DNA from: Caenorhabditis elegans
Taxonomy: Eukaryota; Nematoda; Chromadorea; Rhabditida; Rhabditidae
DNA: 64,000 bases
Direction: 5' to 3'
NCBI RefSeq assembly: GCF_000002985.6
Contig: NC_003279.8
Coordinates: 4,712,001 to 4,776,000 of the forward strand
The notes beneath the pieces were generated by a model that ran no database searches, was not told the origin of the DNA, and saw only the letters and a program-made list of their open reading frames with translations. The position numbers and the translations under genes are program-made. Within the stretch, counting starts at the first letter, position 1; the number at the start of each line of letters is the position of its first letter. Below are positions 5,442 through 51,240 of this stretch, piece by piece.

Positions 5442-5622
5442 TATGGAAATGACGATAAATTGGAAAATATAATTCCACAAAAGTAGAATTTTTAAAAAAC
5501 ATTTATTCGAAAAGGTCAATTCAAAAACATCGTGGTTTTCTTTGCTGAAAATCGTCATTACTAAAGTTAAGTTCATAATTTTTGAAATTCCAAGAAATTG
5601 AAATCGATAAGAAGCTGTTGTC

Positions 5623-7575
5623 ATGAGTGAAGAAGACGATAAACCGGATAGACAAGTGGAAAGTATTCGGTTGAATATTGGTGAGGTACGGTATTCTCGA
5701 ATTCTTCTGATTTTAAATTGCGCGTGTTTTCTGAAGGTCCCCTTGTCATTTGACCTGCAGAATGGCGGGAAAGTTTATTTTTTGAATAATGGCCTTCCAC
5801 AGTAAGAGTGACGTCACACCAGGTGGCGATGGGGTCGCGAAGAAAGTTGGTGGCCGAGTTTTCTCATTTTTGAGGCCAACCTAAGTTTATTTAAGGACTT
5901 AAGGAACGAGATGTTTCAAAATCACAACGAAAATGTTTTTCAGGAGGTTGTTGAGGAAAAGGGCGGGAAGATCGCGTGGCTCACGATTCGCGAATTGGGT
6001 AGAGGTGCATTTGGTACCGTGTACCATGTTTCAAACAAGTCCACAAAACAAGAAGCTGCACTCAAGGTATGTCTTAGAAGAGCACATTTGAAAATAAGAA
6101 CAATTTTCAGATTGAAAAAATGACTGCCGGAGACAATTTACTGAAATTTGAAAGAGAGATAATGGTGGCAATGCAACACGAGCCAACTGCAATTCATATC
6201 TACGATGATGGCATTTACAAGGATTATAGATACATTGTAATGACATTGTGTGGTCCGGATCTGCAGAAAATTGCCGAATTGGTAAGATTTTAGTTGTGGA
6301 GCTTCTCTAATCTTCCTAGATCTAATTCCTAGAGCTTCCTAGACTTATACTTATAATTTGACTGAAGAAAAGAAAAATGACTTTAACTCATGAGATGTAT
6401 AAATTAGAAAGTTCAGAGATCAACGCTGAATCTTTAACTCATTAATTCCAGATGAACAATAATTTCAATCAAGATACCATCATCCGTGTATGCATTCGAA
6501 CTCTTCTTGCTATCAAAACAATGCACGAATACACCTATATTCATCGTGATCTAAAGCCATGTAATTTCGCCGTTGATTTCAACCCAAATTCTCTTCATGT
6601 TTATTTGTTTGATTATGGAATGGCTAGAAAATATGCGACGAAGGATTCCGGTAATAAATGGCAATTGCGACGTCCGAGAAATCCGGTTAGTTTTTCATGG
6701 AAGATTTTTTCGAGTTTTAACATTTAAAAATTTCAGGCGCAGTTCCGTGGGACAGTGAGATATTGTTCTCTGAACATGCACAAACGAAAGGAACTTTCTC
6801 GTGTTGATGATCTTTGGTCATGGTTCTTCATGTTAATGGAGATGTATGCACCACTTCCATGGACATCCTCGAATATTCCAGAACGGATTGAAGCTTTGAA
6901 AGAAGATCATTTGAATGAATATCTTTCAAAAGATTCATTTCTTAGCTCATTCCTTCCACTTGTTGAATATCTCAATTCTGTGCAATATGCTGATCGTCCG
7001 GATTACATGAAGATCTACGACATTCTCTATGCCAAGTTGACGGAGATCAATGGAAAATTGTCGGGACCCATGAAATACGATGTTGCCAGAATCAATGCTT
7101 TGGTTGCTGAATTGGGAGAAACTGGTAAGTTTGTAGTGTCTAATAAATAATTTTCAAAATATTTAAAAAAAAATAAATTTTCAGCTCGCCCAAAGGAGTT
7201 ATCCCGCATGGATGATGAATCCACCATTCAGAAGTATCTTTTGGCGTCATTCGGGAGAGCCGGAGTTCCTGGTGGCAATAATTTGATCATGGCAGAGTTG
7301 GTGGACTTCTTCGCCAAGGACGTACCACTCAAGAAGGCACGGGAAGAGAAGACGGATGATAATAAGAAGCAGGTACTTGGGAATAGGAAAATTTAATTTT
7401 AATTTTCAATATTGCATTTCAGAAGAATGCAAAAGTCAAGAACAAGATGCTTGGTAAGCCGAAACAGCCAGGAAGTGGTGGAGCTAATAGTGGAGATGCA
7501 AAAACTGCACAATCGAAACTCGGATCCAAAATGAGTACACATAAGAAAGCAAAAGTATCGAAGAGAAACAAGTGA
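5623..7575 (+). CDS. CK1/tau-tubulin-kinase-like Ser/Thr protein kinase, copy 1
   Basis: Seven exons: 5623-5685, 5944-6066, 6111-6281, 6452-6685, 6737-7124, 7185-7372 and 7423-7575, giving 439 residues. The kinase domain shows the glycine loop GRGAFGTVY near residue 40, the ALK lysine near 62, IHRDLKPCN with catalytic Asp near 152, and a DYG in place of DFG near 173. That DYG and the CK1-style QFRGTVRYCS segment point to the nematode-expanded CK1/TTBK group, many of which are sperm-enriched. The carboxy tail is Lys-rich (KVKNKMLGKPKQPG) and may bind acidic partners. An MSP-domain gene lies 228 bases downstream, which fits a sperm setting (inference). A second, inverted copy lies at 51241-53140 and is almost identical from mid exon 3 onward. 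Confidence 0.9.
5809..5816 (+). promoter_or_regulatory. TGACGTCA palindrome in kinase intron 1
   Basis: A full CRE-type palindrome lies within the first intron and is retained in copy 2 at 52994-53001, although the surrounding intron has diverged by substitutions and indels. Retention hints at function, but one 8-mer is weak evidence. Confidence 0.35.
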
Positions 7576-7686
7576 TTGGAACTAGACATCAATGAAGTTT
7601 TATGTATTATTTTCTTGTTTTATTTTTTGAAAAGACAATCTTCTATTTAAAAAATTAAAGGTTCCCACGTCTAACAAATGGGCCGA

Positions 7687-7704
7687 GGGGGGGGGGGGGG
7701 GGGG
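7687..7704 (+). repeat. G18 homopolymer tract
   Basis: Eighteen consecutive G residues lie between the kinase and MSP-domain genes. Runs of this length can form G-quadruplexes and are the class that becomes deletion-prone in worms lacking the DOG-1 (FANCJ-type) helicase. Confidence 0.9.
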
Positions 7705-7802
7705 TGACCTTTGAATACTAAAAAAACTCAAAACAGAAGCTTAAGCGATGAAAAATTTATCATTCAAATTAAACAACTTAACTGGATTAATTTTTCGAAA
7801 CG

Positions 7803-9205: not shown

Positions 9206-11716
9206 ATGATAAGAATGTCTGTTGTCTCTATTTCTCTCGTTCTATGTACTCTCTCACTTGTCTCTTCTCTAAATATCCTAGTTCACTCACCTGCTTATGC
9301 GGCAAGTCACACCAATTTTATGGCAAGATTGGCGGATACGCTCACCGAAGCTGGTCATAATGTGGTTTGTGGGAATTGGAACAACTGAAAAGTATCAGAA
9401 ATATTTTCAGACATTTCTAGTTCCAATTGCACTTGAAGAACGAAGAGATAAACTTGGCGTAAAATTAACAAAAGATGTGATAATTGTTGAACAAGATGAG
9501 GAAATGAAAAGCAAATTGGTTCCTCACAGTGGAAGTATTGAGTTTCTATGGATTATTGAGATGGATTCTTCAAGTATTGATGCGGTGAGTTGTCAAACTG
9601 GGAAATTTTTTGTAGGCACAAAAATACCTGCCTGACTACTACCTGACTACCTGACTGCCTGACTAGGTGATACAATGAACAATTATCAAAAAAAAATTTA
9701 AAAAAATTGTTTTTTTTAACTAAAGCAACCTATTTTTGAAGCCGTCACAAAAATTCAACGTATATAAGTTTAAACCTAAAATCGAAAATTTGAAATAAAA
9801 TGAATTTTTTTCAAATTCAGATGTTCTCCTGGTATAATGAAATTATGATTCTGACATGTGAGAATTTCATGAGAAACAAGCAAGTCATGAGTGAACTGAA
9901 ATCCCGTCACTTTGACGTCGCAATTGCTGAACCATTCACAATTTGTGGACTCGGATTATTTGAAGAATTGAATATCAAGAAGACAATACTGGTCTCCTCT
10001 TGTGCTCACTATGACTTCATGCTACCACATATTGGAGAGCCCGAGGATTTCAGCTCAGTTCCTAGTGAGTTACTTTTCAGATTGACCAATTTATTCAAAA
10101 ACGCTATTTCAGCTCTTTCGAGCAAAGTTGGAGAAGAGATGAGCATGACGGAAAAATGGGAAAATTATCGACTGGTTGCTGTAAGTTTGATACGTTTTTA
10201 AAAAATTTAAAAAATTTAGAAATTAATAAAAACTCGTACAAAACAAAATTTTTGGTCGACTCCTCTCAAGTAGCTGCCAACCTTTATATTTACATTTGAA
10301 TTCAGGAAACAAAAGCAAGTCTCGCCAAACTGTTCGATGCAGAAACAAGAATTTATCGTGAATCATTTGGAAGTGATATTCCTGATTGGAAAGAGCTAAT
10401 GTCATCTGCGTCTCTTTATTTCACAAATTCCAATCCATTCATTGATTATCCACGTGCTTCAATTCAAAAAACAATTTCAATTGGTGGGATTACTGTAGAT
10501 TTTCAACAAATCAAGTCAGAAAAACTGAATAAAGAATGGGAAGAAGTTTTGAATAAAAGACAGAAATCAATGTTAATCTCGTTTGGATCAAATGTACCAT
10601 CTGATAAAATGCCGGCTGCGTGGAAGTAAGATTTTTAATTTTTGGGAGCTTTGGCAAACTGCACTTGAATTATTAAATAACTGATTACAAAAATATTTGC
10701 CGGAAATTTTTAAAGATGCAGGTCGAAACATTTTAAATTATTTCTAATTTTTAGGAGGACTTACTTTCTTGATCAAAACTTTTTTTGAAAATTTGGCCTA
10801 ATGAAAACTAGATATTTCCTGAAGTTTATTTAAATAAAAATGATCACCGCTGGATAGGAAAATTTAATTTTGTTTTAAAATACTAATATCTTATTAAAAC
10901 GCAAAGGATTGAAAGATAAACTTTTAACAGTGTTTTTTCACTTATGGTTAACTTCCTGTTCGAATTTCCTCCAAAAGTAGAGCATGACCAATCAGCAACT
11001 AATTCCGCCACTTTTGAGCTAATCAGCAGTTACAAATTTTCCAGAGCCGGAATATTCGAGACTATCAAATCAATGCCAAATGTCACATTCATCTGGAAAT
11101 ATGAATCCGATGATGTCTCGTTTGCTGATGGAATTTCAAATATTCACTTTTCAAAATGGGTACCTCAAACAGCTCTTCTCAATGACCCTCGGTTATCCGC
11201 TTTCCTTACACATGGAGGTCTCGGCTCAACAAATGAATTGGCTTATTGTGCAAAACCAGCTGTTATGGTTCCAATTTACGGTGATCAAACTAGAAATGCG
11301 AATATGCTTGCAAGACATGGTTCAGTTATTGTACTTCACAAGAAGGAATTGGCAAATGTGCAACGAGTTAAAAAAGCTGTACATGACATTCTTTACAACA
11401 AACAGTACACGGAAAGTGCTGAAAGAATAGCTGAAATGATCAAAAATCAACCAAAAACGCCAAAAGAAACTGTTGTAAGATATACTGAATTTGTGGCAAA
11501 GTGAGTAGTTTTCAGTTTAGTTTTTACTTAAATAAATAATTTTTCAGGTACGGACCATTCCCTCAAATGGCTCCTCATGGCCGAAAGCTCACCTATTTCC
11601 AGAAGACATTCCTAGATATTTATTCCCTGTTTGCTTTAGGTGTAGTTAGTGTATTAACTGTTGCTTTCTTAGTTATACGATATGTTTTGAGTTGTTTCAA
11701 ACTGAAGAAAGATTAG
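9206..11716 (+). CDS. UDP-glycosyltransferase (UGT), cluster member 1
   Basis: Seven exons: 9206-9364, 9411-9584, 9821-10064, 10113-10180, 10306-10625, 11045-11500 and 11548-11716, about 529 residues. It would transfer a sugar from a UDP-sugar to small lipophilic acceptors in the ER lumen. Visible features are a signal peptide ending near SLVSS, the HSPAYAASHTNFM block carrying the acceptor-activating His, the FDVAIAEPFTICG segment, and the donor-binding signature WVPQTALLNDPRLSAFLTHG followed by GSTNEL and DQTRN. A carboxy transmembrane helix is followed by a Lys-rich cytosolic tail. The small 48-base intron at 10065-10112 restores alignment with its paralogues. Symbols of the ugt-25 to ugt-28 range belong to this neighbourhood as I recall, but I cannot assign them individually. 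Confidence 0.9.
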
Positions 11717-12064
11717 ACATTTGGAAATTCTTAGATATAATTGTTTTTTGTTCCAATTTTGATACCGATAATAAAAATATTTGATATTTGCGCACATTGT
11801 GGATGTACAATAATACTATTAGGGAACAACTTCCCCCATTAACTGTTTTAATATAATTTTAAAAAACAAGTGCAATTAGAAAATAAAAATCTAGTTTTCA
11901 CTATTTTATTATAATTCTCTTTAACTCTTATCATATTGTTTTTCAACACCGCCTACCGACTGATGATCTTACCAAATAAACTGATCTTTATTTTCACTTT
12001 TTCCATCGATCCATCATAATTCGAACAAAAACAACCAGACAGACAGTCTCCTTCTCCAGACAAA
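11717..12064. other. Intergenic between UGT 1 and UGT 2
   Basis: 348 AT-rich bases with an AATAAA near 11771 for the upstream gene. A CTTATCA near 11927 and CTGATCTTTA near 11980 resemble GATA-type sites seen upstream of intestinal genes, but this is not strong. Confidence 0.45.
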
Positions 12065-14763
12065 ATGCTACTTTTCTTTTATTTCCTCCGATTTCTTCTA
12101 ATTTTCCAAGTTAATTCTATAAATGTTCTTGTCTATTCACCAGCTTTTGCCGCAAGTCACACCAACTTTATGGCAAGGTTGGCAGATACACTCACTGAAG
12201 CTGGACATAATGTGGTAAATTTTCTCGAAAACAGTTTTTTCGAATTCCCGGACCAATTTTCCAGACATTTCTAGTCCCGATTGTAGATGTGGCACGGACC
12301 AAACAATTGGGTGTGCACGTTACAACTGATGTGATAATTGTGGAGGTTAGTGTGCATTTTGAAATGAAAAACTTTGATTTTTTTCCATTTTTCAGAAAGA
12401 TGAGCACACAACTCAAGAAAGTGTTCCATTTGATGATAGTATGGAAGCATATTGGACAGAAGAAACGCATTCGTCTAATGTCGGAGAGGTAAAAAAGAAC
12501 GGGTTTTCAAAGAACATTCTAGAAAAGAAACGAACAAAAAAAAATATTATACTGTTTTTAGATTGTTTTTGTTTTTGTGAGGGAATCATCAGAAGTGACT
12601 TCGAGAATTTTACAACAGAAAAAAGAACATGGAACTTTGTATTTTGAACCTCGCACTGTCAAGTTGACATAGACATTAGTCCCCAAATAGCAATGACTTT
12701 TTGCCGGACTGTATACAGTTTAAAGTAAGATCTGGCGCACAGTGTCAATTATCGTTGGGAAACGACAATTATCTGCCACGCTTTCTGATGCTAATTAAAC
12801 AAATTTCTGGCGCAGATTGACAACTTTCTACGGAGCATTGTCCACGTTCTTTCACTCGTTGTCCACATTTGGTAGCACATGACTTTCTGTCGCAAACTGC
12901 AGGCTTTCTGTCGCAGATTGTCAACTTTCTGTCGCACATTATAAACGTTCTGTAGCACATTTAAAAAATAATGATAAAATAAAACTTCGATCAAAACTTC
13001 AAAGTGTATATATATTATACTTACCAAATGCACAATTTCCAACTAATAATCACAGTCTTTCCAATGGTTTTTCGACGGAATGAAACTAGGATGTGAGAAC
13101 CTTCTTCGTCGACATGAAATTCTGGATCAACTGAAATCTCGCAACTTCGACGTGGCAATAGTCGAACCACTTTCAGTGTGTGGTCTCGGATTGGCAAAAA
13201 AACTTGAAATTGGGAAGACTATATTAGCATCTTCGTGTGCCTATTATGATTATTTATTCCGTCATATTGGAGAGCCAGATGTACACAGTTATCTTCCATC
13301 GTTGATGAGCACTACAGGTGATGTCATGACAACTTTCGAACGACTCGAGAATCATAGAGTTGCAGAGGTTTGTGATTTTTTTTCTAGAATTTTTGAAATA
13401 ATTGTTTTGAAATTTAATATCCATGATGTTACCGGCACAAATTTTTAAAATAATGTTTTCCAGGCAATGGCAACTGCTATGTATAAAATGTTTGATTCTG
13501 AGAAAGCGATCTATCGGAAACATTTCGGAGATGAAATTCCTGATTGGAGAGATCTCTTACCAGCTGCTTCTTTATATTTTACAAATTCCAATCCATACCT
13601 AGATTTTCCCCGTCCAATTCTACAAAAGACAGTTTCAATTGGTGGAATATCAGTCGATACGAAGAAAATAAAATCTCAAGAACTGGATAAGGAATGGAAT
13701 CATATTTTAAACAAACGAAATTTAAATATGCTCATTTCATTCGGCTCAATGATACATTCATCACATATGTTAGATGATGCAAAGAAGAATTTAATAAAAG
13801 TGATAAAATCAGAGCCAAATGTCACTTTTATTTGGAAATATGAAACAAATGACACCTCTTTTGCCTTTGGTATTGATAATATTTACTTTTCCAAGTGGGT
13901 TCCACAATCTAAACTACTGAATGATGCTCGATTAACTGCATTTTTGACTCATGGGGGTCTTGGATCTACAAATGAACTTGCACATTTTGGAAAACCCGCC
14001 GTAATGGTTCCAATATTTGGTGATCAATATAGAAATGGACATATGCTTCAACGACATGGATGTGCAATTATTGTTCAGAAAACTGAGTTGAGCAATTGGA
14101 AAATTGTGAGCTCGGCTGTGAAATCAGTTTTATACGATGAGAACTACAAAAAGAATGCGGCGCATTTGGCGGATTTACTGCAAAATCAACCGGTTAAGCC
14201 GAAGGAAATTGTCGTGAAATATGTAGAGTTTGTGGCAAGGTAAGTTTTTTCAAGAATTAAAACAAAGTGGGCTCAAACCGAGCTCCACCAAAACCGAAAT
14301 TTTCGCTGCAAGATCCCAAAAAAGGGTAGAGTTTCTTTTTTTTTTTTTGGTTTTTTTTGGAGTTGGAACCCGATTTGAGAAAATCGTCAGAAAAGTGTGG
14401 CGACATTTTCGGAATAAAAATTAACATTTTTGAGAACCTTTCCTGGAACTTTTTTTTGTTGTAAAAAGAGTCAACCTCCCCTTCTGCGTCTCACCACCTG
14501 AGCATTTAGTTTAAAAAAAGTTTGTTGGCTTTGAAGTTGTAAAGTTTTCCGATACACTTTTTTCAAGGCCTATAGTTTTACTACAACTTTCCAGATTCGG
14601 GCCATTTCCCGAAATGGATGCATATGGTCGGCAGCTGAATTTCATTCAACGAAATCTTCTAGACGTGTACCTTATCGAACTTTTTGGACATTTTTTGTTC
14701 TTTCTTATCATTTTCTGTTTAATTCCCCTACAATTGAAACGTTGGCTTATCAAGAGAACCTGA
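12065..14763 (+). CDS. UDP-glycosyltransferase (UGT), cluster member 2
   Basis: Six exons: 12065-12214, 12265-12345, 12396-12488, 13056-13367, 13464-14239 and 14595-14763, about 526 residues. It has a signal peptide, the AASHTNFMARLADT block with the likely catalytic His, FDVAIVEPLSVCG, and the donor signature WVPQSKLLNDARLTAFLTHG with GSTNELAH and DQYRN. A carboxy membrane helix ends in LKRWLIKRT, a dilysine-like basic tail. Unlike members 1, 3 and 4 it has no intron between the GSM block and the VTFIWKYE block; the coding sequence there reads straight through. Intron 3 (567 bases) carries a short minisatellite. Role as for the other members: conjugation of small molecules in the ER. Confidence 0.9.
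12800..12965 (+). repeat. Degenerate minisatellite in UGT 2 intron 3
   Basis: Roughly seven diverged units of 20-25 bases built on TTCTGTCGCAGATTGTCAAC, for example near 12806, 12880, 12904 and 12928, with GCGCA and TAGCACAT variants. It has no coding sense. Confidence 0.6.
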
Positions 14764-15330
14764 ATGAAATATGTTCCGTGTTTTGTGGTCACAATGGGGC
14801 GGGGTTGTTAAATGGGAATAATTGCACAAATTAATCGCGATCTGAAAAAATATTTCAAACGAGAAACAAACTTTAAAAACGATTTCAAAAAAGATGGTTT
14901 TCAGAGAAGTAAGAAGATTTGGCGGAAAATTGATTAAATTGAATTATAATTCATAACTTTAGATAAAATGTGTGTTTTAAAAACTAACAATTCTAGTTTT
15001 TGTCATGTTTTCATTTAAAAAAAAATCAAAATAAATTATATGTAAATTTTTTTGTTGATACTTCAATCCGCACTACACCATTAAAATAAAATCCAGATTC
15101 AAAATTTTAAAAAATCAAAAAAAAATTGCTCTCCCCATCTCTTTAAAGATCAAATAATCATCTTGTCCTTTTCGACCACACAATTTTGTGGTCTGTGAAC
15201 ACAAAAAGGCGTGTCTGTTTGCCGCGTAATATTACGCAACGTGTGAGAGACTTAGTATGTTAGAGAAAAATAAAGTAGACATAATAAAAATGGTTGTTTT
15301 TCCTCTCATTCTCCGTGCTTTAACTTCACA
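14764..15330. other. Intergenic between UGT 2 and UGT 3
   Basis: AT-rich. It holds TCTTTAAAGATC near 15140 and a GTGTCTGTTTGCCGCGTAATATTACGCAACGTG stretch (15211-15243) with a GCGTAATATTACGC palindrome at 15223-15236. No gene is seen. Confidence 0.6.
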
Positions 15331-18297
15331 ATGTTACTCAAATTTCTGATATTTTCCTCATTTTTCTGCTCTACAAGTTCTCTGAATATTCTTGTCTACT
15401 CTCCTGCATTTGCAGCCAGTCACAGTAATTTTTTGGGGAAGCTGGCGGATACATTGACCGAACGAGGACATAATGTGGTAAGTTTAAACTTTTCAAAAAA
15501 AAACGTTTTAATTTGACCAGCCAAAAAGTGGCAATTGCTGAGTTTCTGCTAGATTTCAGAAAACTATAGCATTTTCTACAATGTTTGAAAATATATATTT
15601 AAAACACTAGTAGACAATAAAATGCGAAAAACATTTTTTTTGATTGATAACTTCCAAAAAAGTGGCAAAAACTGAGTTTTTTTTAAATTAAAACTAAATC
15701 ATTTAAAATTTTGAATTTTTTGAATTTTTTTACTATGATATTTAGTCATTGTGCTACCATAGGCATATTTTAAAACAATTTACCCACTGGACCCTATCCA
15801 CATTTAAATTGCCATTGAAGAAAAATAACAAGACTATTAAATTTAAGAACCTTCTGAAATAAGTTGATATCTTTCATTAAAAAATAAAGCTCTACAGTAA
15901 TCTGAATTCAAAAGCACATGCCTCAATTTTTCAATTCTTATGCTTTGAAATCTCAAAATTTAGCGATTCATTATAATTTTAAAATAATATATTTATTTTT
16001 TTTCAGAATTTCTAGTTTACGATTTTTGGTGCCCATTTTAACTTTTGCCCTCAAAAATGTGTACAATTTTCATACAATTTTTTTAAACTTAACACAAACG
16101 TTGAATTTTCTCTTTCAGACATACTTGATGCCAGTTGTAGATCCCGAAAAACGAGATGAATGTATCGGAGTCAAATTGACAAAAGATTTGGTTATCGTGG
16201 AACCTGATGAAGAAATGATGTCATTTAAGAAGGGAAGTACACCGAATGGGGAGATTATGGAACTTTTTTGGAAATCTGAAATGGATTCTTCTAATTCTAG
16301 AGATGTGAGTTCTTGATTGGTTGTAAAAATATTCAATGTAAATTCTAAAAAAAATTTGGTGGGGAAAACATCCTGGATTTTTTTTGTGTTCACCCGACTT
16401 GATAAAAAAATACTTTTCCGGAAAAATACAAGTTTCCAAAAAATCTTCTTCAACGTTTACCTAGTCCTAGGCACTTCAATGAGATGTAATATTTATTTAA
16501 AATAAGAACAATTTTTGAAGAAATACTTGAATTTCCCTAACTAAAAGAGTTGCACGGGTGGGTTTAACAGCTTTTCTGTAAATTTCTAGCATTTTATTGG
16601 AAAAAAAATTAGAGGGGAGCCAGTTTGTTGCCTGATGTTCTCTACTTTTTGTTGCATACCCAAACTGAGAGCGACCCTCTCCAATAACAGAAGAAATGTA
16701 TACTCTTGTTTTAGAAATTGATAAACTATTTTCAGATGTTCTCGTTTTTCAATTCCGACATGAAACTTGCCTGTCGTAACTTTCATAAGCGTCGGGACAT
16801 TTTCGAACAAATGAAATCTCGCAACTTTGACGTTGCAATTCTCGAGCCTGTTACCATCTGTGGACTTGGATTCGTGAAAGCTCTTGGAATCGAAAAAACA
16901 ATTTTGGCATCTTCAAGTACTTTTTATGATGCAGTTATGGATTATATTGGAGAACCATTAGATTATAGTTATGTACCATCTGGATTCAGTGTCACTGGAG
17001 ATGTGATGACTATGGCTGAGAGATATGAAAATTGGATGGTTGTTAAGGTAAACTTGTTGTAGTCTATAATTCTTGTTATGGTGTACTTTCAGGAAATCAA
17101 TATCGCTCTACATGACATGTTCGATGGCGAGATGAAAAGTTATCGTGAATTTCTTGGAGAAGATCTTCCAAATTGGCGGGAACTTCTCTCATCTGCTTCA
17201 ATTTTCTTTGTCAACGCCAATCCATTTCTGGATTTTCCACGTGCAGTTCTTCAGAAAACTGTTCCAATTGGAGGAATTTCAATTAATTTGAAATGGATTA
17301 AAGAGCAAAAACTGACTAAAGATTGGGAGGATATTTTGGAAAAGAGGACGAAAACGGTCCTAATCTCATTCGGGTCAATGGTCAAGTCTGCGTATATGCC
17401 GAAGATATGGAGGTTTGCGATGGGGAGAGGAATATGTGGAATTTTAAAATTATAATAATATGGTAGTCAAATAATCAAGAATGGTGTCCAATTATGCACA
17501 AATTAAGTCGTTCTCACTTGAGTAGAAAGTTCACATAATTTTGCTGCACCAAACATTTTTGAGAAATTTTTTAAATTTAAAAATCATGTCAATTTCAAGA
17601 AACGGCCTGCTCGAAGTGATCAAATCAATGCCAGATGTCACATTCATTTTCAAATATGAATCCGATGAAGTCTCGTTTGCTGATGGAATTTCGAATATTC
17701 ACTTTTCAAAATGGGTACCTCAAACAGCTCTTCTCAATGACCCTCGACTTTCCGCTTTTGTAACTCATGGAGGACTTGGAAGTACAATGGAATTGGCTTA
17801 CAGTGGAAAACCAGGAGTTGTTATTCCAGTATTTGCTGATCAAATTCGAAATGCTCGGATGATTGCTAGACATAACGGTGTCATTTATCTGCATAAGAAT
17901 TCAATGGAAAATGTAAAAGTAACTCGGAAAGCACTCACAGATGTTCTTTATGATGAGAGTTACAAGAAAAATGCAGAGAAATTGACGGATATCTTGATGA
18001 ATCAGCCATACAGTCCCATGGAAAATGTTATCAAATACACGGAATTTGTTGGAGAGTGAGTTCATTAAATTTGACTAAATATAATTTTAAAACCATATTT
18101 CCAGACATGGCCCATTCCCTAACACTGATCCATATGGTCGTCATCTCAATTACTTCCAGAAAACATTCTTTGATATTTATGCTCTTTTCGCATTGTTTTA
18201 TATTTCTGTAGGTACAATTATTGCAATTAGTATTAGATTTATTTATCAGAAAGCTAGAAAATATTTCACATTGGAAAAATCTAAGAAAACTGAATAG
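15331..18297 (+). CDS. UDP-glycosyltransferase (UGT), cluster member 3
   Basis: Six exons: 15331-15477, 16119-16304, 16736-17047, 17093-17412, 17600-18055 and 18105-18297, about 537 residues. The signal peptide is followed by AASHSNFLGKLADT (acceptor-site His), FDVAILEPVTICG, and the donor signature WVPQTALLNDPRLSAFVTHG with GSTMELAY and DQIRN. The carboxy end has a membrane helix and a Lys-rich tail. The acceptor before 17600 is TTTCAAG, weaker than the usual TTTTCAG; I chose it because it alone keeps the RNGLLEVIKS block in frame. The first intron is 641 bases and holds nothing I recognise. Function as for the other members. Confidence 0.88.
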
Positions 18298-19622
18298 AAC
18301 TGGTATTGTTTGCATTTCATTTGATTGTTCAATTTACGGATCTCTAAATAAATTCCTCTGATTTTCAAGTTGTTCAATTAATCAAAAATTATGCTCAAAC
18401 TTTTAGTTTTAATTTTCTAAAAAATTGAATTAAAAAGGCAAATAAGTGCCTTATACCTAAAATGCTCTCTAGCACTATCAGAAATATTGATTGCAGTTTA
18501 AGACATTTTTCAAGGTTTGTGATCTATTTTTTATGTTTAGATTACTGCAGAGAACGAAAAATCTAAATATATAGCACAAGAAAACACACCCACAATGAAC
18601 AAACCACACTTTCAATGCGTGATCTTCATGATCTTCATTGCAAGTGACAGTTTTTCAATGAACGCGAATACTTTGTCTGTGCCTTGTCTATAGATCAAGT
18701 TACCACTCACAAAGAATAACTTCCTATTAGGGAAATAAATACAGTAGAAGTTTACAAGTTCGCACCCAGAGATCCTAATGAGAAACTAGCGACAAAAATC
18801 ATTTGATTGTTTTCAGACGAAGACATCGAATTTTACAACCTAATTAACCGGAATTGACGACTTGGAAAACTGGAATGATCTATGTACCAAGTATATGTAC
18901 CAAGTTCCTACACAATTACCCAATTAGTGAATAATAGTGCAGTTCTCAAATGTACAATATTAGTGTTTTACATTTTTAACCTAGAACATGAAAAATCTTG
19001 GCCAGTTAGGGCTACAAATTGGATTAAAGAAAACGTTCTGTGTCCGGTTTTTCCGGATTCTGGACGATCCGGCGCCTGTTTGTTTTCGGGGTTACAACAT
19101 GTTTTTCAAATAAATTTTGTCTTTGTTGCAGTGTTCATCTCGAAAAGAAATACCAATTGAAATGCAAAAAATTTCATGAAAAAAAATTAATTTTAAAAAA
19201 AATAGACAACTCGGCAAAAGCAATGTGAAAACTTGGTTCCATTATTAAAAAGCGTGCGGAATACTTGCACTCTGCTAAAATTAAAAACTTTGGGTGCAAT
19301 GAACAAAATTCAACTTTGTGGGTTTTTGAACAAAAATCTGTCCGAGAAAAGCTATGCAGAGATATAAATATCCAATCACATGAATTTCATGTTCACTAGA
19401 ACACATTAATAAAGCAAATAAACTAGAAAGTATGAATGATTCGATTTCACAACATTTGGTCATATCAACATCATCATCCATATCAGTACAGTGTCTTTTC
19501 TCAAATACGAAGACTACGGAAACTACATTATTTCAGAACTAATGGGCGGAGAGGAACTCCTTAACTAAAGAACTTATAAAAGGAAAATGAAAAAGTGACA
19601 ACAGCAGTCACATTAACACATA
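18298..19622. other. Intergenic between UGT 3 and UGT 4 (1.3 kb)
   Basis: The longest gap in the cluster. A TATATGTACCAAG word repeats near 18886 and 18893. The short ORFs at 18882-19228 are not coding by composition or context. I see no RNA gene or mobile-element protein. Confidence 0.6.
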
Positions 19623-22600
19623 ATGATTATCCAATCAGTGTTCATTTTGTTATCTGTTATCAATGTTAATGCGTTCAATATTCTTGTGTATTCACCATCT
19701 TTTGGTGGAAGTCATACTAATTTCATGGCAAGGCTGGCAGATACTTTAACTGAAGCTGGACATAATGTGGTAAGTTGGGATTAGAGCTGAAGAAAGTTTT
19801 TCGACAAAAAAGAACATATTTTCTGTCAGTTGGAAACATTCTTCTGAAAAACTTAAATAATTTTATTAAAATTGCCCCTTAGATTCAGTTCATTGTTTTT
19901 GGGAAATATGTAAAATTTATACATTTATGAGTTGTCCAGTTGGCAGGCTAACAGGATTTTTCACTTGCTTCTTTTCAATTAATTTGTTGAACCATATACC
20001 TATTCTGTCAATTATAACATAAGGTAGGCATAGGTCGGCATTGTGTGTCTGGGGATCCAAATAGATAAGAAGACAATCATACAACACTTATCATTATCAT
20101 GACCTCCTAGTCTGTACTTTAATATCTTTGCCTTTTTTGATGCAATTGATAAGATTTGCGAATACTATATTTGAAAAGTTGACAAAAATGCATTCTTTCT
20201 GAAACATTGAAAATCGCATTGAAATTAATAGAATTTTATATTCCGTAGGCAGACAGGTATTCATTTTGCGCCTACCTTATCATTGGATAATTTTGTATTC
20301 AAAATATCAATATATTTATTTTTTAGAAATCTTTAACCTGTTCCAGAGCTCAATTATGAGAAAAAATAAGATAGTTTCTGAAAATCGAAAACAAAACTAC
20401 ACTCTTAGCTCAGATGTGCAGAAGTTCCATTTTACAAAATGCAATTTTCAGACATTTGTTGTTCCAGTGGCAGATGAAGCTCGCAAAGGTCAGCTGGGTG
20501 TTAAAAAGACTAAAGATGTTGTTATAGTTGAGGTAAGTCTAACTTTTGAATCTTTATGATAATCTTCCAAATTCAATGTATTATTCAGCAAGACGAGTTG
20601 ATGAAAAGCGAGATAAAACCATTAGATGATGACATGGCACAGTACTGGGAGACTGATATGGATTCTTCTAATGCTGATTCCGTAAGTGTTTTTTGAATTT
20701 AAAGAGTGAAAATTGAAGCACATATATTTAGTTGAAATACTACAAATTCTTGTTCTACCAGTTGTCGGCAAAAAAGGTAGCCGGCCATTTTTTGATAATG
20801 AAGATAACAATATTTACCTTAAAAAGTATAAATTAGAGTTAAATTTACACTTTGAATACAAAAGTAATTTGCAAAATAATTCTAAAAAATAAGAATTTAG
20901 GATCAAGGCTCTCACAAAAAATTTTAATGTGAAATATCTTCCAAAAACCAAAAAAAAACTCTGCAATTTATCGAATTTTTTCCCAAAAAAATGCAGATTT
21001 GCTTTTTAAAAAATCCAAAAAACCAAACAATTCCAAAAAAATCAAAAAAAAATTCAACCTTGCAAAAAAACTCCACAGTACAAAAAATGTAGCCTCATTG
21101 TATCCACACTAAGTATATGTACCTAGTAACCAAAATTTTCAATTTTTCAGATTTTCTCAGTATTCAGTGATGCAATGCTCCTATCGTGCAACAACTTCAT
21201 GCGAAACAAAAAAGTATTCAATGAACTTAAATCCAGAAACTTTGACGTTGGAATCTATGAGCCACTTTCTGTCTGCGGTCTTGGATATATGCATGCAATT
21301 GGAATTAATAAACTAATAATGTCATCCTCGTGTGCTCTTTACGATGGAACTGTTGCTGCAATTGGAGAACCTATTGACTTTAGTTATGTACCTGGAAGTA
21401 TGAGCAAGTCTGGAGAGAAAATGAGTTTATTCGAAAAACTTGAGAATTATCGATTATCGATGGCCAGTTCCCGTATGCAATATGGACAATGGGATAAGGA
21501 AACTGAAATTTATAAAAAACATTTGGGAAATGATATTCCTCATTGGAGAGATCTTATGCCATCTTCTTCGGTCGCCTTCACAAATTCAATTCCATACGTG
21601 GATTTTCCAAGATCCATCACTCAAAAGACAGTTCCAATTGGAGGAATTTCAGTAGATATGGAAATGATTAAATCTCAAAAGTTATCAATTGAATGGAGTA
21701 CAGTACTAGACGAACGACCACATAATATGTTAATTTCATTTGGATCAATGGTTAGAAGTATGGATATGCCATTGAAATGGAGGTTAGTTACCATTCACTT
21801 GGAAATCAAAATTGGCAATCAAAATAATAAATATAACAACAAAAAAAAGAACGAAACGAAAACGTTGACTTTAAATTTTGAAACATCTAAAATCATTCTA
21901 CTATCTAAAATTTCAATTTTAAATCGCTTTTTTTAAATGTATTTATTTATATAAAACGGCGATGTAACGTTTCATTATCGAAATTTCTTAAACATTTTTT
22001 TTTAAAGGCACGCGTTGCTTTTCTGAATGGGTCTTGACACAAAAATTTTATGAATTTCAATAACTTAAACTGTACAGAAAAGTCTAGGCAATATCATATA
22101 AAATTTAGCGCCTAGTTTCAAGTTTTGCCAAATCTCACACTTCAATATTCACAAACTGTGTTTTTGGTCAAACTTTAAAAATATTACGGGAACAAACAAT
22201 TCTGAGAATGCGTATTTCGCAACATATTTGACGCGCAAGATATCTCGTAGCGAAAACTACAGTAACTCTTAAAATGACTAGCTTGTGTTGATTTCAATAA
22301 TGAATTCATGGATTCATCAGTGGAATATTAAAATTAAACAGAACATGGAAAAATAATACGAAGAACCAAAGAAAGATGGGATATCCTTTGATTTTAAAAA
22401 GAGCCCGTAAATCGACACATGTGCTACAGTAGTCATTCAAAGAATTAAGAATTACTGTAGTTTTCGCTACGGGATATTTTGCGCGTCAAATATGTTGCGC
22501 ATCACGCATTCTCAGAATTTTGTGTTCCCGTAATATGATACTGAATTTAATTCTTAAAAATTAAAAATTAAAATCCTTTTTTACAGAAATGGACTGCTGG

Positions 22601-23229
22601 AGGCCATCAAATCCGAGCCAAATGTCACATTTATTTGGAAATATGAAAATGACAATTTGGAATGGGCAAAAGGAATTCAAAATATTTATTTTTCAAAATG
22701 GGTTCCTCAAACAGCTCTTCTAAATGATGCTCGATTAACTGCATTCATGACTCACGGAGGTCTTGGATCAACGAATGAATTGGCTTTTCTTGGAAAACCT
22801 GCACTTATGGTTCCAGTATTTGCTGATCAAGATAGAAATGCGAATATGCTTGCAAGGCATGGAGGTGTTCTAGTTGTTCATAAAAAAGAGCTCGGAAACT
22901 TTAAAACAATCAAATCTTCGATTCGATCGATACTTCACGAAGAAAAGTATCAGAAAAATGCTCGAAAATTGTCAGAACTCTTGAATAATCAGCCATTGAA
23001 GCCAAAGGAACAAGTCGTGAAGTACACGGAATTCGTCGCCAAATTCGGACCATTTCCACAAATGGATTCATATGGAAGGCAGCTGGGATTTATTCAGAGA
23101 AATCTAATTGATATTTATGCAGCTATTAGTTTATCCTATCTTTTCGTCATTTCCCTTATCTATTTTGTATTCAAATTTGTGATCTCAAAGACTCCATTGA
23201 AATTGGTCAAGTTGGTAAAGAAGGATTAA
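19623..23229 (+). CDS. UDP-glycosyltransferase (UGT), cluster member 4
   Basis: Five exons: 19623-19769, 20452-20532, 20589-20681, 21151-21782 and 22587-23229, about 531 residues. It starts with a signal peptide ending near VNA, then GGSHTNFMARLADT (likely catalytic His), FDVGIYEPLSVCG, and the donor signature WVPQTALLNDARLTAFMTHG with GSTNELAF and DQDRN, then a membrane helix and a tail ending LVKKD. Three introns present in one or more sister genes are missing, including the one before the KFGPFPQ block. The last intron (804 bases) hosts a palindromic MITE. Role: ER conjugation of small lipophilic compounds. Confidence 0.9.
22181..22536. mobile_element. Palindromic MITE in UGT 4 intron
   Basis: 356 bases with long terminal inverted repeats: ATATTACGGGAACA at the left and TGTTCCCGTAATAT at the right, continuing inward through TTCTGAGAATGCG, AACATATTTGACGCGC and CTACAGTAA arms. 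It encodes no protein. A diverged relative lies at 39340-39590. Confidence 0.85.
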
Positions 23230-23755: not shown

Positions 23756-26075
23756 CTAAGGCGGAGGTGTTGGTCCGTTCATGCACATTGCGGTGAGCGG
23801 TTTTATGTGACCATCCCATTGTGCGACCTTTTTATTGTTCTCCACATCCCAGATTTTGACCTGATTGTCGTTTCCGCCAGTGAAGATGTATCTGGAAATA
23901 TTGATTGAACTTTTCAAAAATTAATCTTTTTGATAACAAAATTCTTCTGGAATATTCGACTATTTTAATTTTTTCAATTTCAATAGCTTACCTTCCTTCA
24001 GAAGAGAAAATAGCATCCCAATTCCATCCACACTCTGTCTGCAGGGAACCTTTGATTTCCATAGTTTCCGAATTAAAAACATAAACTTCTTTTTCAGATC
24101 CAGATGCAACAATATATTTTCCATCGGGACTATAACGACACGATAGACCATGGCCTTCTCTCATTTTATAATGTTTATCCTCATCACGAAGACATCCATA
24201 GGTTCCAGTGTCTTGTTCAATTGGAACAATTGGAGATTTAAACATATCAAATGCACTCGATTCGACGACTTCTCTCGTCATCAAATCCCAACACAGAAGA
24301 CGTCCTTTATTCGTAATTCCTGTTAGTTTCTTTCCTGATGGATGAACTGCCAGCTTTTGTACGAATTCCTGCATTTTCAGATCATCTGGCATCGGAAGTC
24401 TCATGAAAATATGATTGACTACATCCCAAACCCAGACATGAGCAGAATTGGTTGAAACGAACAAATGTGTTTGATGTGTGTTCGGAACGATGCTGGTTAC
24501 TGTAGATCCGGGAAACGAGAGAAGTCGATTCGCAACTAATTGATTATTTCTCATTTCCCAAATACGACATACTCCGTCATCACCTCCTGTGTACATCCAA
24601 CGACCGGCAGCCTGGAAAATTAAAGAAATTCTTAGTTTATTTTCAAGCTGATAGGGGATGCTGTCTTGTAGCTTTTTCGATTTTTTGGAACAAAATCGAA
24701 AATTTCCCATTTTTTCTATGTAAAAATGGAAACATTGAAAATTATAGTTTTAGTATGTTTTTTCTCACATTTTCCAAAAAAATTCCAATTTCTGGAACAT
24801 CGAAAAAGGAAAATTTATCGTTTTTCAGTTTTAAGAAAATCGAAAAATCGACCATTTATTTTTTTTTGCTTAAAAAAATGGAAACATTGAAAAAATGTTA
24901 GTTTCAGTTTTTTTTTGTTCGAGCATCGAAAAATCGAGAACTCTGGGTTTTTCGATTTTTCGAAAATATAGCTCTACACTTTGGTCAATTTTTTTTTATT
25001 TTACGAAGAAAAATATTTTTTCTCGTTTTTGTTGATTTTTTAAAAAAGATTATAGAAAAACAAAAATTTTATTGTATTCAATTTTTTTTTTCAAATTTAT
25101 GTTCGACCACGGATTATTAATTTTTAAAACGATAAAAAACACAATTTTGGTAAGTTCAAAATGTTTTTAAAATTTTAACGAAAATTTCAAATTTTTTTTT
25201 GTAATCTCGTGATAAATTCCAAAAAACAATTTTCTCGTTGTGGTCGCGCAATTTTCAGTTGACATAACTTTTTTTGTTGTTTTTTTTTGTTTAATTATAC
25301 GCTTTCAATGAATTTTCAATCGATTCTTCCTAATAAGTACCTCAAATCCAACAACTGTCACATTTTTCGGTAGTTCAATTGTCGCTTTCGGATCTTTTCC
25401 CGATGAAACATCATAAATTCGAACTTTCTGCCATGCACCAACAGCTAAATCACGTCCAGTTGATGTGAGACTCAATGCATTTACCTTTAAATTCAATAAA
25501 TAATCATCATCACTCAATATGTTTCATCCAATTACCTGTCCTTCATTGTGAGGAATCGTACCAATACATTTTCCAGTCGACAATTGCCACAAACGAATCG
25601 TTAAATCGTATGAAGCAGAGACGAGAAGCGCATGTGGTGATGGATCGAATGATGGTGGGGCTTCAGTTGGTACTTGGTTTGTGTTCTGAAAATGTTTTTC
25701 TGTTTCGAAAGACTTTTCTGGTGTCATAAAATATTTTTTGAAAAAAATAAATATTTGGCGATTTTTCAACTTTTTAAATCTCATTTGAATTACGAAAAAT
25801 ACTTATTTTTCAACGATCGTGGCATTTTTCTTCATTTATTAAAAATAAAGAAAACAGCACAAAAAAGTCGCAGTGTGAGAGAAAAAACCACTTTTGTGAT
25901 CCAAAAAATATTTCAAGCAAAACGCGAATTTTCGAATTTGACTCGCGCACCAATTCAATTCTGATTCTAAATTTTTTGTTACAAATTCTGCGCTGTTAGA
26001 ATTTTTAAAGCAATTTTAGTTGAATATTTTTTCGCACACAAAACAAATCCTAACCATTTTGTTTCTCCACGCCAT
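23756..26075 (-). CDS. mlst-8: LST8/GbetaL homologue, WD-repeat subunit of TOR complexes
   Basis: Five exons on the minus strand: 26075-26055, 25685-25536, 25484-25341, 24611-23992 and 23891-23756, giving 356 residues, near the usual LST8 length (about 326) with a slightly longer N terminus. The sequence is a run of WD repeats. The hallmark GRWMYTGGDDGVCRIWEMR matches the GRWMYTGGED block of mammalian LST8, and YDLTIRLWQLSTGKC and FTGGNDNQVKIWDVE are further blades. LST8 binds the TOR kinase domain in TORC1 and TORC2 and supports growth and lipid signalling. It lies upstream of the UGT cluster in convergent orientation and downstream of let-502 on the same strand, 880 bases away, so an operon is unlikely. 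I first considered UNC-37/Groucho and rejected it. The symbol follows from homology and the remembered C10H11 neighbourhood. Confidence 0.92.
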
Positions 26076-26954: not shown

Positions 26955-32261
<5,307 letters not shown>

Positions 32262-44700: not shown

Positions 44701-47484
44701 CCCGCGATGTCTTCTGTTCATGAAGTTGCATGTTTTGTGGTTGTACATCAGAAGCATCTCATGAAGTATGAAGGATTGTACAGTAATATTCTGGAGAAAA
44801 CTAAAGCATCACAATTGTGCATTGAAATTCTTGGAAAATCAGATTTGAATTGCACTGCAGAATCGATTGTAACAGTGACAGGAGCTAGTAGAAGTACCCT
44901 GTCGAAGCTCTTGTTTTGCTCTGAAAATTCTGAATCCTCAAGTGAGAATAATAATTATCATCAAGCATCATCAGTGGAGCCATTCGAAACAACAGTTGCC
45001 AAATTGAATTTAGTACTTCGAATCGCCGGCGATAACACTGCTGAAACATGTTCACGTCGGGAACGGCTCTCCTATGAAATCATGAAACCAAGTGAAGTGC
45101 TCATTTTTGATTTTGGAAGTGAAATCTACGTTTGGACGGGTAGATATTCGAATAAAGTTAGCTCAGCTTACGCTCAAGAATATGCGAAACAACTTATGAA
45201 GAAGCCTGTTAAAAATGGGAAATTTATTCTAGGAGATGCAGAATCTATTGATCAAGATGGACGACCAGAATGGACGCTTTCAAGAAAAATTCATCAGGGA
45301 GTTCTGGTGAGTGTCTAAAATTTCTGAAAAAAAAAAACATTCCTATTAATTTCAGGACACTCTGTTCAAAGCAAAATTCTCGGATTGGCCTGAAACTCGT
45401 GAAGTCTTGACAACTTGTAAACCTAGAGCCTTGATCTCGAAGAAGAATCCGGAAGTGAAGACGTATGAAGATGTGAAGGTCGTGAATCAAGATGATGAAG
45501 TGGCTGATCTTGTGGAACGAATGCTCCAGGAGCAAGAATTGGATCCAATTTTAGTTCTAGAAGATCAAGAGATTGATAGAAAAATTCATGATGTAATCAG
45601 CGAGGATCGATCACTTTGGGTGCTCCGAGGAGAAGTTCTGCAGAGTATCGAAGAATTTACGGAGCATTTTGATTCAAGACGATGCTATGTTCTTCGTTGG
45701 AAATACAGAATTCAAAAGTCAGGAGTACGGAGGATTAAAACGGGAAAAGAAGAAGAACGGGAAACTGGTAGATCAAGAATCGCATTCTGGTATTGGCTCG
45801 GCGAGCACACAACTCCAAAACAACATGGTCTTTGTGCTCTACGAATTAAGGAAATTGATAGAGATAATAGTCCAAGAATCCGAATTGCTGATGGAAATGA
45901 GCCTGCGTTATTCTTGGCACTTTTCGATGGAAAATTCATGGTTAGCAGTGATATTTCGGAGATGAAGCCGCTCCGACGATACGTGGTTATTGGCGCGAAC
46001 TCCCGGGAAACTAGTCTTCGAGAAATTGATGATTTGAATTCGCCGCTTCGATCTCATGCTGCTTATATTGAAGTGGAAAAAGACATTCTTGGCCCATCAA
46101 GTGTAGTGTGTGGAGCAAATTGCACTGAAGACCAAGTGCATTTTGTGTTGGCACACGCTGAATATATGAGGCAGAAGGCAGGAGTGAAGGGAAATTCTGC
46201 AGAAATTGAGGTAGAAGGTGATAAAAAGTCGCGGAGCTGGGTGAATTCAAATGGAAGAAAACGGGCGATGCGAGTTTGGAGATTATTTGATAATGAGTCG
46301 GAGCAAGTAAATCATTTGAGTGGGCATAAGAATTGTGCATTCACTTTTTCACAACAGGTTTGTGAATTTCAATCTATTTTCAAATTCTGCGATTTTTGAC
46401 TAAAAATACGGTACACGGTCTCGACACGACGCTGAATACAGAAGGGTATGCGCCTTTAAAGAGTACTGTAGTTTCAAATTTTTGTTGCTACGAAATTTTT
46501 TAAATCGATTTTTCATAGTTTTTTCTCAATTTGGAAAAATCAATTTTTTTAATTGTTAAAACATGTTTTTATTGAACAACTTTTAAAAGAAATCGATGAA
46601 AATTCCGCAGCAACAAAAGTTTAATTTTACAGTACTCTTTAAACGCGCACATTTTTTGCAGCTAACTAAAATGTATCGTGTCGAGACCGGGTACCGTATT
46701 TTTGGCGAAAAATTTAGCTTCTGGGTTATATTCGTTTTTTTAGCGAATTTTGTCGTTTTCGCTTCATTTTTCAGATTAATTTTTTGAACTCAACTTTCAA
46801 AAAATTTTCCATTTAAAAAAGTTGAAATGTGGTTTGAAAACTGATTTGAATCAATTTTATCACACAAATGAAACGAAAGCGACAAAATTCGCTGAAAAAA
46901 TGAAGACATTTATTTAAAACTGCAAAGAAAAAAACTACCATAAACTTTTTCTCGCGTCGAGACGCATTCAAACAAATTCGTGCGCCTTTAAGAAGGCATG
47001 CCAAAATCTGGTCAAATTACGATATTGATTTGTGATTTTTCAGGTCCTGAAAGAAACCATTCTAATTGATGTTGGAGACGCTCTTTGGTTATGGTCAGAA
47101 GAAGTTATTACTACATTTGCACTGAAAGTCGCTGAAAAATACTGGAAAGATCGCAGCGGACCAGCAAAAGTTGTGTACAAAGGAGCAGAACCTGAGCAGT
47201 TTAAAGGACTTTTTATGAAATGGGAGATGTTCGAAGTTGAAGATGACAAGCCCTCGGATCCACCACGCGATGTTTCGGATCTTCTCAAAGAACGTTGTAG
47301 AACATTTTCACTCGAAGAACTGAAAGAACGAACAAGTCTTCCAGCTGGAATGGACATGAGACGTCTGGAGAGCTACTTGACTGACGACGATTTTATGAAA
47401 GTTTTTAAAATTGAAAGAAGCGAATTTTATGCTCAAAAAACTTGGAAACAGAACGATGCACGGAAAAGAGTTGGACTATTCTGA
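41749..47484 (+). CDS. viln-1: Villin/supervillin-like actin-binding protein with headpiece
   Basis: Six exons: 41749-41871, 44020-44179, 44224-44368, 44421-45306, 45356-46357 and 47044-47484, giving 918 residues; upstream exons cannot be excluded because an acceptor lies just before the ATG. The N-terminal 150 residues are Gln/Pro-rich. Gelsolin-type repeats follow, recognisable at VMLIQVRGSKNVDVRLV, EVLIFDFGSEIYVWTG, RIAFWYWLGEHTT and ILIDVGDALWLWSEE. The end is a classic villin headpiece (YLTDDDFMKVF, then FYAQKTWKQND and KRVGLF). It should bind or bundle F-actin. The segment order resembles the villin-supervillin group. The symbol rests on homology and its place beside let-502. The 2.1-kb first intron carries a tRNA-like element; the last carries a MITE. 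Confidence 0.9.
43102..43175 (+). tRNA. tRNA-like element, probably a Leu/Ser-type pseudogene or SINE head
   Basis: An exact A box TGGCCGAGTGG (43108-43118) and a near-consensus B box GGTTCAATTCT (43152-43162) lie 33 bases apart, followed by a T-run at 43176. The acceptor arms do not pair and the T-stem has a mismatch, so a functional tRNA is unlikely. The element could still bind TFIIIC or be transcribed by Pol III. It lies in viln-1 intron 1. Confidence 0.4.
43454..43480. repeat. Perfect GC-rich hairpin in viln-1 intron 1
   Basis: GCGGGCCC and GGGCCCGC around a GCA loop (43458-43476), extended by ACTG and TAGT. It lies in a GC-rich block (43381-43480) that contrasts sharply with the AT-rich intron and looks imported or repeat-derived. 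Confidence 0.75.
46407..46698. mobile_element. Palindromic MITE in last viln-1 intron
   Basis: 292 bases with terminal repeats TACGGTACACGGTCTCGACA and TGTCGAGACCGGGTACCGTA, inner arms GCCTTTAAAGAGTACTGTA and ACAGTACTCTTTAAACGC, and an AT-rich centre. Next to it (46730-46905) is a second palindrome built on AGCGAATTTTGTCG arms. Confidence 0.85.
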
Positions 47485-47983: not shown

Positions 47984-49307
47984 TTACAGCATGCATTCGT
48001 CGAAACTTCCGACATCGGATTCCAAATGCGGCTGCCAATCCGAATCCTCGAAGTCGGCGGATACGTCGTGGTCACTTTCCCGGCTCACACGATCAGTGTC
48101 GATTTCCGGGCCATTCGGACATTCGCTGCAGATCTCGTCGATGCTCTTTTTGATGCTCTGGATGCGCTCTCGAAGTTGCCTAGCGAGTCCTTGTTCTGGC
48201 CCATTCTGGTTGGCAAGTGCACGCTGAATGGCATTTTCCACACGATCCAATCCCAGAATGGCGCTCCTCGCATCATCAGAAACATTGGCTTGATCTAGGT
48301 TGATGGTCGAACTGCTTGGTTCAGATGACATTTCCTCTGACGAATGAACGACATATGTGTTGCAAAGGGGATTCTGAGTTGATTGTTCGGGCTTTCCGTG
48401 GTCTTGCTCAGCGTCTTCCGAGTCGACATAGGCCAGCTGGTAGAAATCTCTGTTCAATGATTTGCACAGAATTTCATTAGTTTCCTCTCGACTCTAAAAA
48501 AATAAGATTTTAGTTCAATAAAATTATATACTCAAGAAATTTACCTTGTTCAACGTTGTCATAATTACAGCATTATCAAGTAGAATCGATGAAGTGTTGT
48601 TGAAGACTGCAGCTGGCACAGCGACTGTGTTGGAGTCACAATATCTCAATGGAACCAAGCTGTACTCGTCGTCACTTCCGTCCTCATTGATTGCAGGATT
48701 CTTCGGCGTGCTGGTGTAAAGTGGTGTGAACGGCTGTAAAACAACAAAATTAGCATAAAGTTGTTAAAATAAATATTCTCACCCGTGGCTGACGATCTTC
48801 CGGAGTGTTATCCAATTCGAATCGGACTGCTTTCAACACACGAGGAGGGAGTTTGAATCCTTTCGATGGATGTGGAGTGTATTTATGATCCTCAGGAAGC
48901 TCATCTTGTGCTGGAGTAGTTCGATGCTTCCAATACGAAATCTCGTCGTCATCCCACCAAAACTCGTCGTTTTTCATTGACGACACAGACTCGCGAGTCT
49001 TTTTTTCAACAAACTTCTCCATTCCGTCGACGTCGTTGTTCCGGAAGCACTTCATTATTTCATCGACAGTTTCTTTGTCCTGTTTCTTCTTCAAGTCCTT
49101 CTCAGTCTGACGCCATACAAACCAGCTGAATGGCCGGAAGAACGAGACGCCTTGTACGTCAGAAGTGTGTGGAGATGCCATAGAATGCCAGGAGCTCGAT
49201 AATGAAGTCGATTTCATTGTTCGAAATGATGAATCGGAAGTGCTCTGCCCTGAGCAGTAGGACAGAGCATCTTCTCCGATCATCACTCCGGCGTCTTGTC
49301 GAACCAT
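47984..49307 (-). CDS. kca-1: Probable kinesin cargo adaptor KCA-1
   Basis: Three coding exons on the minus strand: 49307-48783, 48733-48545 and 48493-47984, giving 407 residues from the ATG MVRQDAG. An acceptor at 49322 implies an upstream leader exon or trans-splicing. No globular domain is recognisable. The protein is acidic and Ser-rich with two Trp-in-acid clusters, NDEFWWDDDEISYW and FEDSDWQPHLESD. These resemble the W-acidic motifs by which cargo adaptors bind kinesin light chain TPR domains. I recall that kca-1, which links kinesin-1 to the meiotic spindle, lies next to viln-1 in cosmid C10H11, so I assign it on motif plus location. The alternative is an unknown acidic protein. The first exon is cut by a tandem duplication whose second copy lies upstream. 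Confidence 0.6.
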
Positions 49308-49938
49308 TTGGAATCGAACGGCTGCAAGAGAAAATATAATTGGGAAAAAAGGAAGGAAAAGTGGAAAAAGGAAATTGAATAAATAAATTTTCGAAAAAAT
49401 TAAGTTTAAGCTTCGAAAATTAATCCTAAAAAAGAGAAAAATGTGATTCAAAAAGGCTAAAAGTGAAATGAGAATACGAAAATACGAAAATACGCGCCTT
49501 TCATTGCACAGGTCTCGGCGCGACTTTACCTCCGGAAAATTTGGCACATGCGTCTTTAAAAGAGTACTGTAGTTTCCTTCAATATTTGCGACAATGAAAA
49601 ATCGATTTAAAATCGAAAATCTTCCCAATTTGTTTTAAAAAATTATAAGAAATTACATGAGCTCAGAACATTTTTCTTTGGTATTTTTTCATTTCTAGTT
49701 GAAATCCAGTTAAGTTGCTAAAATTTAATCCCGTATTTTGTTGATTTTCCAGTAATTTATTTCTAGAAATAAATCAAATGTGTTTTAAACTCTGAAATTT
49801 CAACAGAAAAAACAAATAATCATGCGAGTATTCGAAGAATCGCATAAACTCCGAAACTTTAATTTTTTTAAGTTCATTGCCCGAGAGGAGAACACGGCCG
49901 AGAATCTGAAAAATCATTTGCACGCGGAATTCAAATTA
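48887..49938. repeat. Tandem duplication, proximal unit (1052 bp)
   Basis: Begins at a GATC inside kca-1 exon 1 and runs through its upstream region. All stretches I compared, coding and non-coding, match unit 2 exactly. Confidence 0.95.
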
Positions 49939-50990: not shown

Positions 50991-51240
50991 GATCGAGGAA
51001 AAGAGTAGTATTTGGAACTTTGTACATCATAACATCTTTCTGGGAGACTTTTGTGATGTTTCCCTTATGCACATTGCCTTGTTAGATCATATAAAAAGCT
51101 TTTGAGCAGAGTCTCAAATATTACTACATCACCTTTACATTTTGGAACCTTTAATTTTTCAATGGAAGTTTGTCTTCTCAACAAATAAGACAACAGAAGA
51201 ACACATAAAACTTTATTGATAATGAAATGTCTAGTTCCAA

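Follow-up and report, generated by a model that had tools for sequence, protein, structure and literature searches.

A sharply bounded identity tract, probably left by recent gene conversion, in an inverted pair of kinase genes of Caenorhabditis elegans

An inverted pair of kinase genes and its surroundings

The window, by which we mean the whole stretch of 64,000 nucleotides analysed here, occupies 4,712,001-4,776,000 of contig C1. It contains a kinase gene in two copies, A and B, which face in opposite directions and whose inner edges lie about 43.5 kb apart. The homologous blocks were delimited by blastn of the window against itself and by global alignment, and are 93.3% identical over 2,181 alignment columns. 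The genes were modelled from splice sites and translation, and their coding regions run exactly where the preliminary description had placed the two copies.

5502-7665, plus strand: copy A, whole homologous block
5623-7575, plus strand: kinase gene A, with exons at 5623-5685, 5944-6066, 6111-6281, 6452-6685, 6737-7124, 7185-7372, and 7423-7575
13449-14237: UDP-glucuronosyltransferase exons, between the copies
23991-24749: WD40 gene, between the copies
30561-31385: Rho-kinase-like gene, between the copies (best match ROCK1, E 2.4e-119)
47029-47481: gelsolin/villin gene with a villin headpiece at its end, between the copies
51144-53261, minus strand: copy B, whole homologous block
51241-53140, minus strand: kinase gene B, with seven matching exons

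Each gene encodes 439 residues in seven exons with canonical splice sites and a frame open without a stop. Sixteen codons differ between them, and the proteins differ at five amino acids (residues 28, 31, 65, 75, and 434), at all of which the C. elegans database protein P0001 matches B. A Pkinase domain was identified in A (E 1.3e-26). The best PDB match is Tau-tubulin kinase 1 (TTBK1; E 2.7e-44), with CK1 alpha behind it at 2.1e-32, and such best matches suggest that the pair belongs to the tau-tubulin kinase group of CK1 kinases. In matching TTBK1 best, A and B resemble the nematode tau-tubulin kinase / casein kinase 1 expansion (SPE-6, kin) treated in PMC8527485. As read from the sequence alone, both proteins contain AALKIE and HRDLKPCN, with DYG in place of the DFG motif in each.

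The genome has at least 103 exon-level matches to the kinase query, with 96 of 173 candidates scored. In the clustered protein database, C. briggsae is represented by one protein (one member sequence, three contigs), C. nigoni by one (two members, one contig), and C. remanei by two, at 61% and 67%. Because this database is clustered at 90%, a near-identical second copy in a sister species would be hidden. Many SPE-6-like worm kinases are described as spermatogenesis-enriched and possibly redundant in PMC8527485, and the gene beside copy A, from 7803, encodes an MSP domain (Motile_Sperm, E 3.2e-21); neither shows a sperm role for A and B.

The Rho-kinase-like exon between the copies fits the let-502 label of the preliminary description. 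UDP-glucuronosyltransferase-like genes form a tandem array at 9265-23226, in which exons are 68-84% identical to one another. A perfect tandem duplication (48887-50994) follows shortly after the villin-headpiece gene and stops 149 bases short of copy B. In it, 48887-49942 equals 49939-50994 (1,056 bases, period 1,052), and the start of a minus-strand gene is repeated. GATC, the recognition site of Sau3AI, an enzyme employed in making clone libraries, stands at its left end, junction, and right end. The duplication may be an assembly artefact, two clone ends joined with their overlap unmerged, or it may be real and very recent. A short repeat occurs three times beyond the opposite end of copy B (53733-54041, 55864-56171, and 57163-57392; two direct and one inverted, 93-96% identical). 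It has at least 72 matches genome-wide, many as inverted pairs, which is how a small inverted-repeat transposon would be expected to look.

The identity tract and its edges

Divergence between the copies is non-uniform, both in the alignment and in a 50-base divergence profile, and a long stretch is almost free of differences.

6207-7553, plus strand: identity tract, copy A (1,347 bases, one difference)
51263-52609, minus strand: identity tract, copy B, partner of the tract in A
6345 in A / 52471 in B: sole within-tract difference, in intron 3 (T in A, C in B)
5601-5703, plus strand, in A / 53162-53060 in B: a further identity run, of 103 bases, covering exon 1

With each gap run counted as one event, the block of 2,110 columns contains 81 difference events (73 substitutions and 8 gaps), of which one falls in the 1,347 tract columns and 80 in the 763 flank columns. 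Flank divergence is thus 10.5% by events and 9.5% by substitutions alone, and all 8 gap events lie outside the tract. Before the tract, differences are concentrated in the 5' flank, introns 1 and 2, exon 2, and early exon 3. The final two before the tract are at 6203 and 6206, and differences resume at 7554 and continue into the 3' flank. The preliminary description had named these parts, together with the last codons and the 3' side, as the divergent ones, and had reported near-identity from exon 3 to exon 7 with one change seen in intron 3; both statements hold in the alignment. A sharp tract was also rightly recognised, its limits being 6207 and 7553 rather than 6205 and 7575.

On both sides of the tract diverged homology continues in register, over a short flank of 112 bases (7554-7665) at the 3' end. 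Inside it, exons 4-6, the included parts of exons 3 and 7, and introns 4-6 show no differences and intron 3 shows 1 in 170, and all coding differences between A and B lie before 6207 or after 7553. Outside it, introns 1 and 2 have diverged by 13.6% and 9.1%, exon 2 and the first part of exon 3 by 6.5% and 7.3%, and the upstream and downstream sequence by 10.8% and 12.4%, respectively, with 0 of 63 positions differing in exon 1.

The five longest runs of identity measure 1,208, 138, 103, 54, and 41 bases, and the 138-base run adjoins the longest across the intron 3 change. When the 81 events were shuffled 100,000 times, no shuffle matched the 1,208-base run (the longest runs averaged 125.6 and peaked at 377), under a uniform rate that ignores rate differences between sites. 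When only the flanks are shuffled, the 103-base run over exon 1 has P = 0.00033; it is possibly a small second tract, or possibly a sign of constraint on exon 1. A long G run (7700-7717) that is missing from copy B follows shortly after the 3' end of A.

Origin, age, and direction of the tract

We interpret the tract as a recent ectopic gene conversion, in which one copy would have served as template and overwritten the other, and give this reading a probability of roughly 90%. It is supported by the abrupt edges, the equal identity of introns and exons, the lack of any indel in the tract, the intact frames, and the identity of a fast-evolving tail. The starting point would be the inverted duplicate of about 2.2 kb as now seen, in which both reading frames are open and the sequence outside the tract differs by about 10%. 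Judged by flank divergence alone, the duplication would be old compared with the tract. One copy may then have suffered a break that was repaired by non-crossover synthesis on the other as template, or a series of overlapping events may have had this effect, and the homogenised allele would have been fixed, or happened to be sampled in this strain. A recent ectopic conversion over an older duplication, and not protein-level selection, was what the preliminary description had proposed, and the evidence from introns, edges, and tail agrees with it.

Purifying selection on the kinase could preserve an identical middle, given that the kinase domain falls mostly within the tract and that each gene has kept an open frame, but the introns and silent sites argue strongly against this. 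The tract's four introns (3-6) contain 1 difference in 331 positions, compared with 31 in 242 for introns 1-2 (Fisher P 1.5e-11), and within 6207-7553 there are 0 synonymous differences over an estimated 212 synonymous sites; a synonymous change in codon 433 has its differing base at 7554, outside the tract. When flank rates by class (intron, synonymous, and replacement) are applied to the tract, about 97 differences are predicted and 1 is seen, a prediction that draws on few flank sites and corrects only roughly for rate variation between sites. The variable tail (residues 300-432) is identical between A and B at 133 of 133 residues, against 79 of 127 for C. briggsae and 80 of 128 for C. nigoni. 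Identity over residues 1-94, 95-299, and 300-432 is 80, 75, and 62%, respectively, for C. nigoni and 78, 74, and 62% for C. briggsae, so that among Caenorhabditis relatives the tract part of the protein is no better conserved than the rest. The tail is 36-50% identical to relatives P0004-P0007 and 34% to P0009, and P0008 is without one. Because the tail retains only 62% identity with the C. briggsae and C. nigoni relatives yet is fully identical between the copies, protein-level selection cannot explain the tract, and we give this explanation next to no credence.

The same mosaic would be expected from a second recent partial duplication, in which a copied fragment replaced the matching part and the old segment was lost, and partial duplications are both common in C. 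elegans and able to mimic conversion (PMC3966223). Here, however, the tract stands precisely in the place of its homologue: homology continues on either side, and neither edge has a duplicate remnant or a gap. A new insertion would not give in-register edges unless it replaced its homologue by homology, and that is conversion, which makes a separate duplication very improbable. We attach an equally low probability to an assembly or clone artefact, by which the sequence of one copy would be shown at both places in the reference. The perfect tandem duplication with GATC at its ends and junction, 149 bases from copy B, speaks for such an error, but both copies, which we take to sit on different clones, have unique surroundings and flanks that are about 10% different on each side, and one base differs within the tract. 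The reference was, moreover, assembled from individually sequenced clones (PMC5793790), so mixing of reads between copies on different clones is unlikely.

For gene conversion, the single difference at 6345 would be either a mutation in one copy after the event or a base left unconverted. The mutation rate of C. elegans is 2 to 2.7e-9 per site per generation. If this rate is adopted, the flank introns, with a Jukes-Cantor distance of 0.14, give an age of 26 to 35 million generations. The single change in the 1,347-base tract gives about 0.14 to 0.19 million generations (95% range 3,500 to 1.03 million); the ratio of the two ages is firm, the absolute ages are not.

Either copy could be the donor from these data, the tract of A or of B having likely been overwritten by its partner. 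At residue 65, six of the eight relatives P0002-P0009 have R and the other two T, and A has K65; at residue 75, seven of the eight have I and one L, and A has F75. Because A is derived at both of these polarised positions, copy B has the more ancestral-like N-lobe, a result that concerns the unconverted N-lobe and not the donor of the tract. The relatives give no clear polarity for residues 28, 31, and 434. Comparison with other kinases does not name the donor: the next paralogue (chromosome V), at 39% protein identity, is too distant to polarise DNA, and the relatives are proteins only. The sequence between the copies might in principle be inverted by way of these repeats, as the preliminary description also suggested, though this is conjecture.

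Comparison with known conversions and other kinase pairs

In a review (PMC3966223), conversion between Caenorhabditis paralogues is given for 143 of 7,829 duplicate pairs, with C. elegans tracts of 12-2,958 bases (mean 117) and introns included in 15% of events. Conversion is commoner within than between chromosomes and, in the genome-wide survey reviewed there, drops with distance over 1-8 kb and mostly involves neighbours in the same orientation. The tract in A and B falls within the known range of lengths. Like fog-2/ftr-1, the hsp16 modules, col-12/col-13, and act-1/act-3, as presented in the same review, it is an abrupt tract in diverged flanks, includes introns, and joins two genes on one chromosome. 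Those pairs are adjacent or close, however, whereas A and B are inverted and have genes between them, and their tract is about 10 times the mean. The inverted arrangement, the distance of about 43.5 kb, and the length of 1,347 bases as against a mean of 117 count against conversion, by the figures of PMC3966223.

We searched for comparable cases in 42 loci and two pairs on C2 and C4, which are part of the family only. One inverted near-identical pair (L033/L034) lies at 5.06 and 5.26 Mb of C4, about 190 kb apart, and another (L035/L036) at 8.47 and 8.25 Mb of C2, about 227 kb apart; the members of each score the same, or almost the same, against the kinase query. The C4 pair has 70 events in 7,447 columns and a longest run of 1,984, and the C2 pair 114 events in 4,147 columns and a longest run of 697; each run was reached in 0 of 20,000 shuffles, under nulls that assume uniform rates. 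The runs extend over kinase exons and over the stretches that separate open frames. The C4 tracts, of 1,984 and 1,019 bases with one difference between them, span two neighbouring kinase genes and the intervening sequence. At 7348-7447 of L033, about 20 substitutions fall in one 100-base bin right after the 1,019-base identical run, possibly the edge of two conversion tracts.

A same-orientation pair (L022/L030; C1, 6.50 and 6.16 Mb) is 90.9-94.9% identical with patchy divergence. Its 82 events in 1,871 columns leave a longest run of 173 (P 0.024), a weak signal that counts against homogenisation in every pair. Four further pairs in the family are 80-85% identical. An orientation bias cannot be claimed from three inverted pairs and one direct pair. 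It is a speculative and rather unlikely proposal that widely spaced inverted TTBK-like pairs on at least three autosomes (I, II, and IV) are repeatedly homogenised, with orientation favouring exchange, as a nematode counterpart of male-germline palindromes. On mammalian sex chromosomes, inverted repeats and palindromes carry male-germline genes. A and B resemble these in being inverted, near-identical, and apparently homogenised gene copies; unlike them, they are autosomal, small, and widely spaced.

Our literature search found no prior account of this pair, a weak absence given that subscription papers, including the original conversion survey, were mostly outside its scope. The process itself is known in C. 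elegans, and A and B would be a new, long, inverted, and well-separated example of it. As such they may offer a clean natural record of a long conversion, with few cases at such distance and orientation in the survey reviewed in PMC3966223. The two genes seem younger over most of their length than their true age, and knockdown or guide RNAs directed against the shared 1.35 kb would strike both. If wild isolates differ in the tract, the pair would make it possible to measure directly how often, in which direction, and over what length sequence is exchanged in C. elegans.
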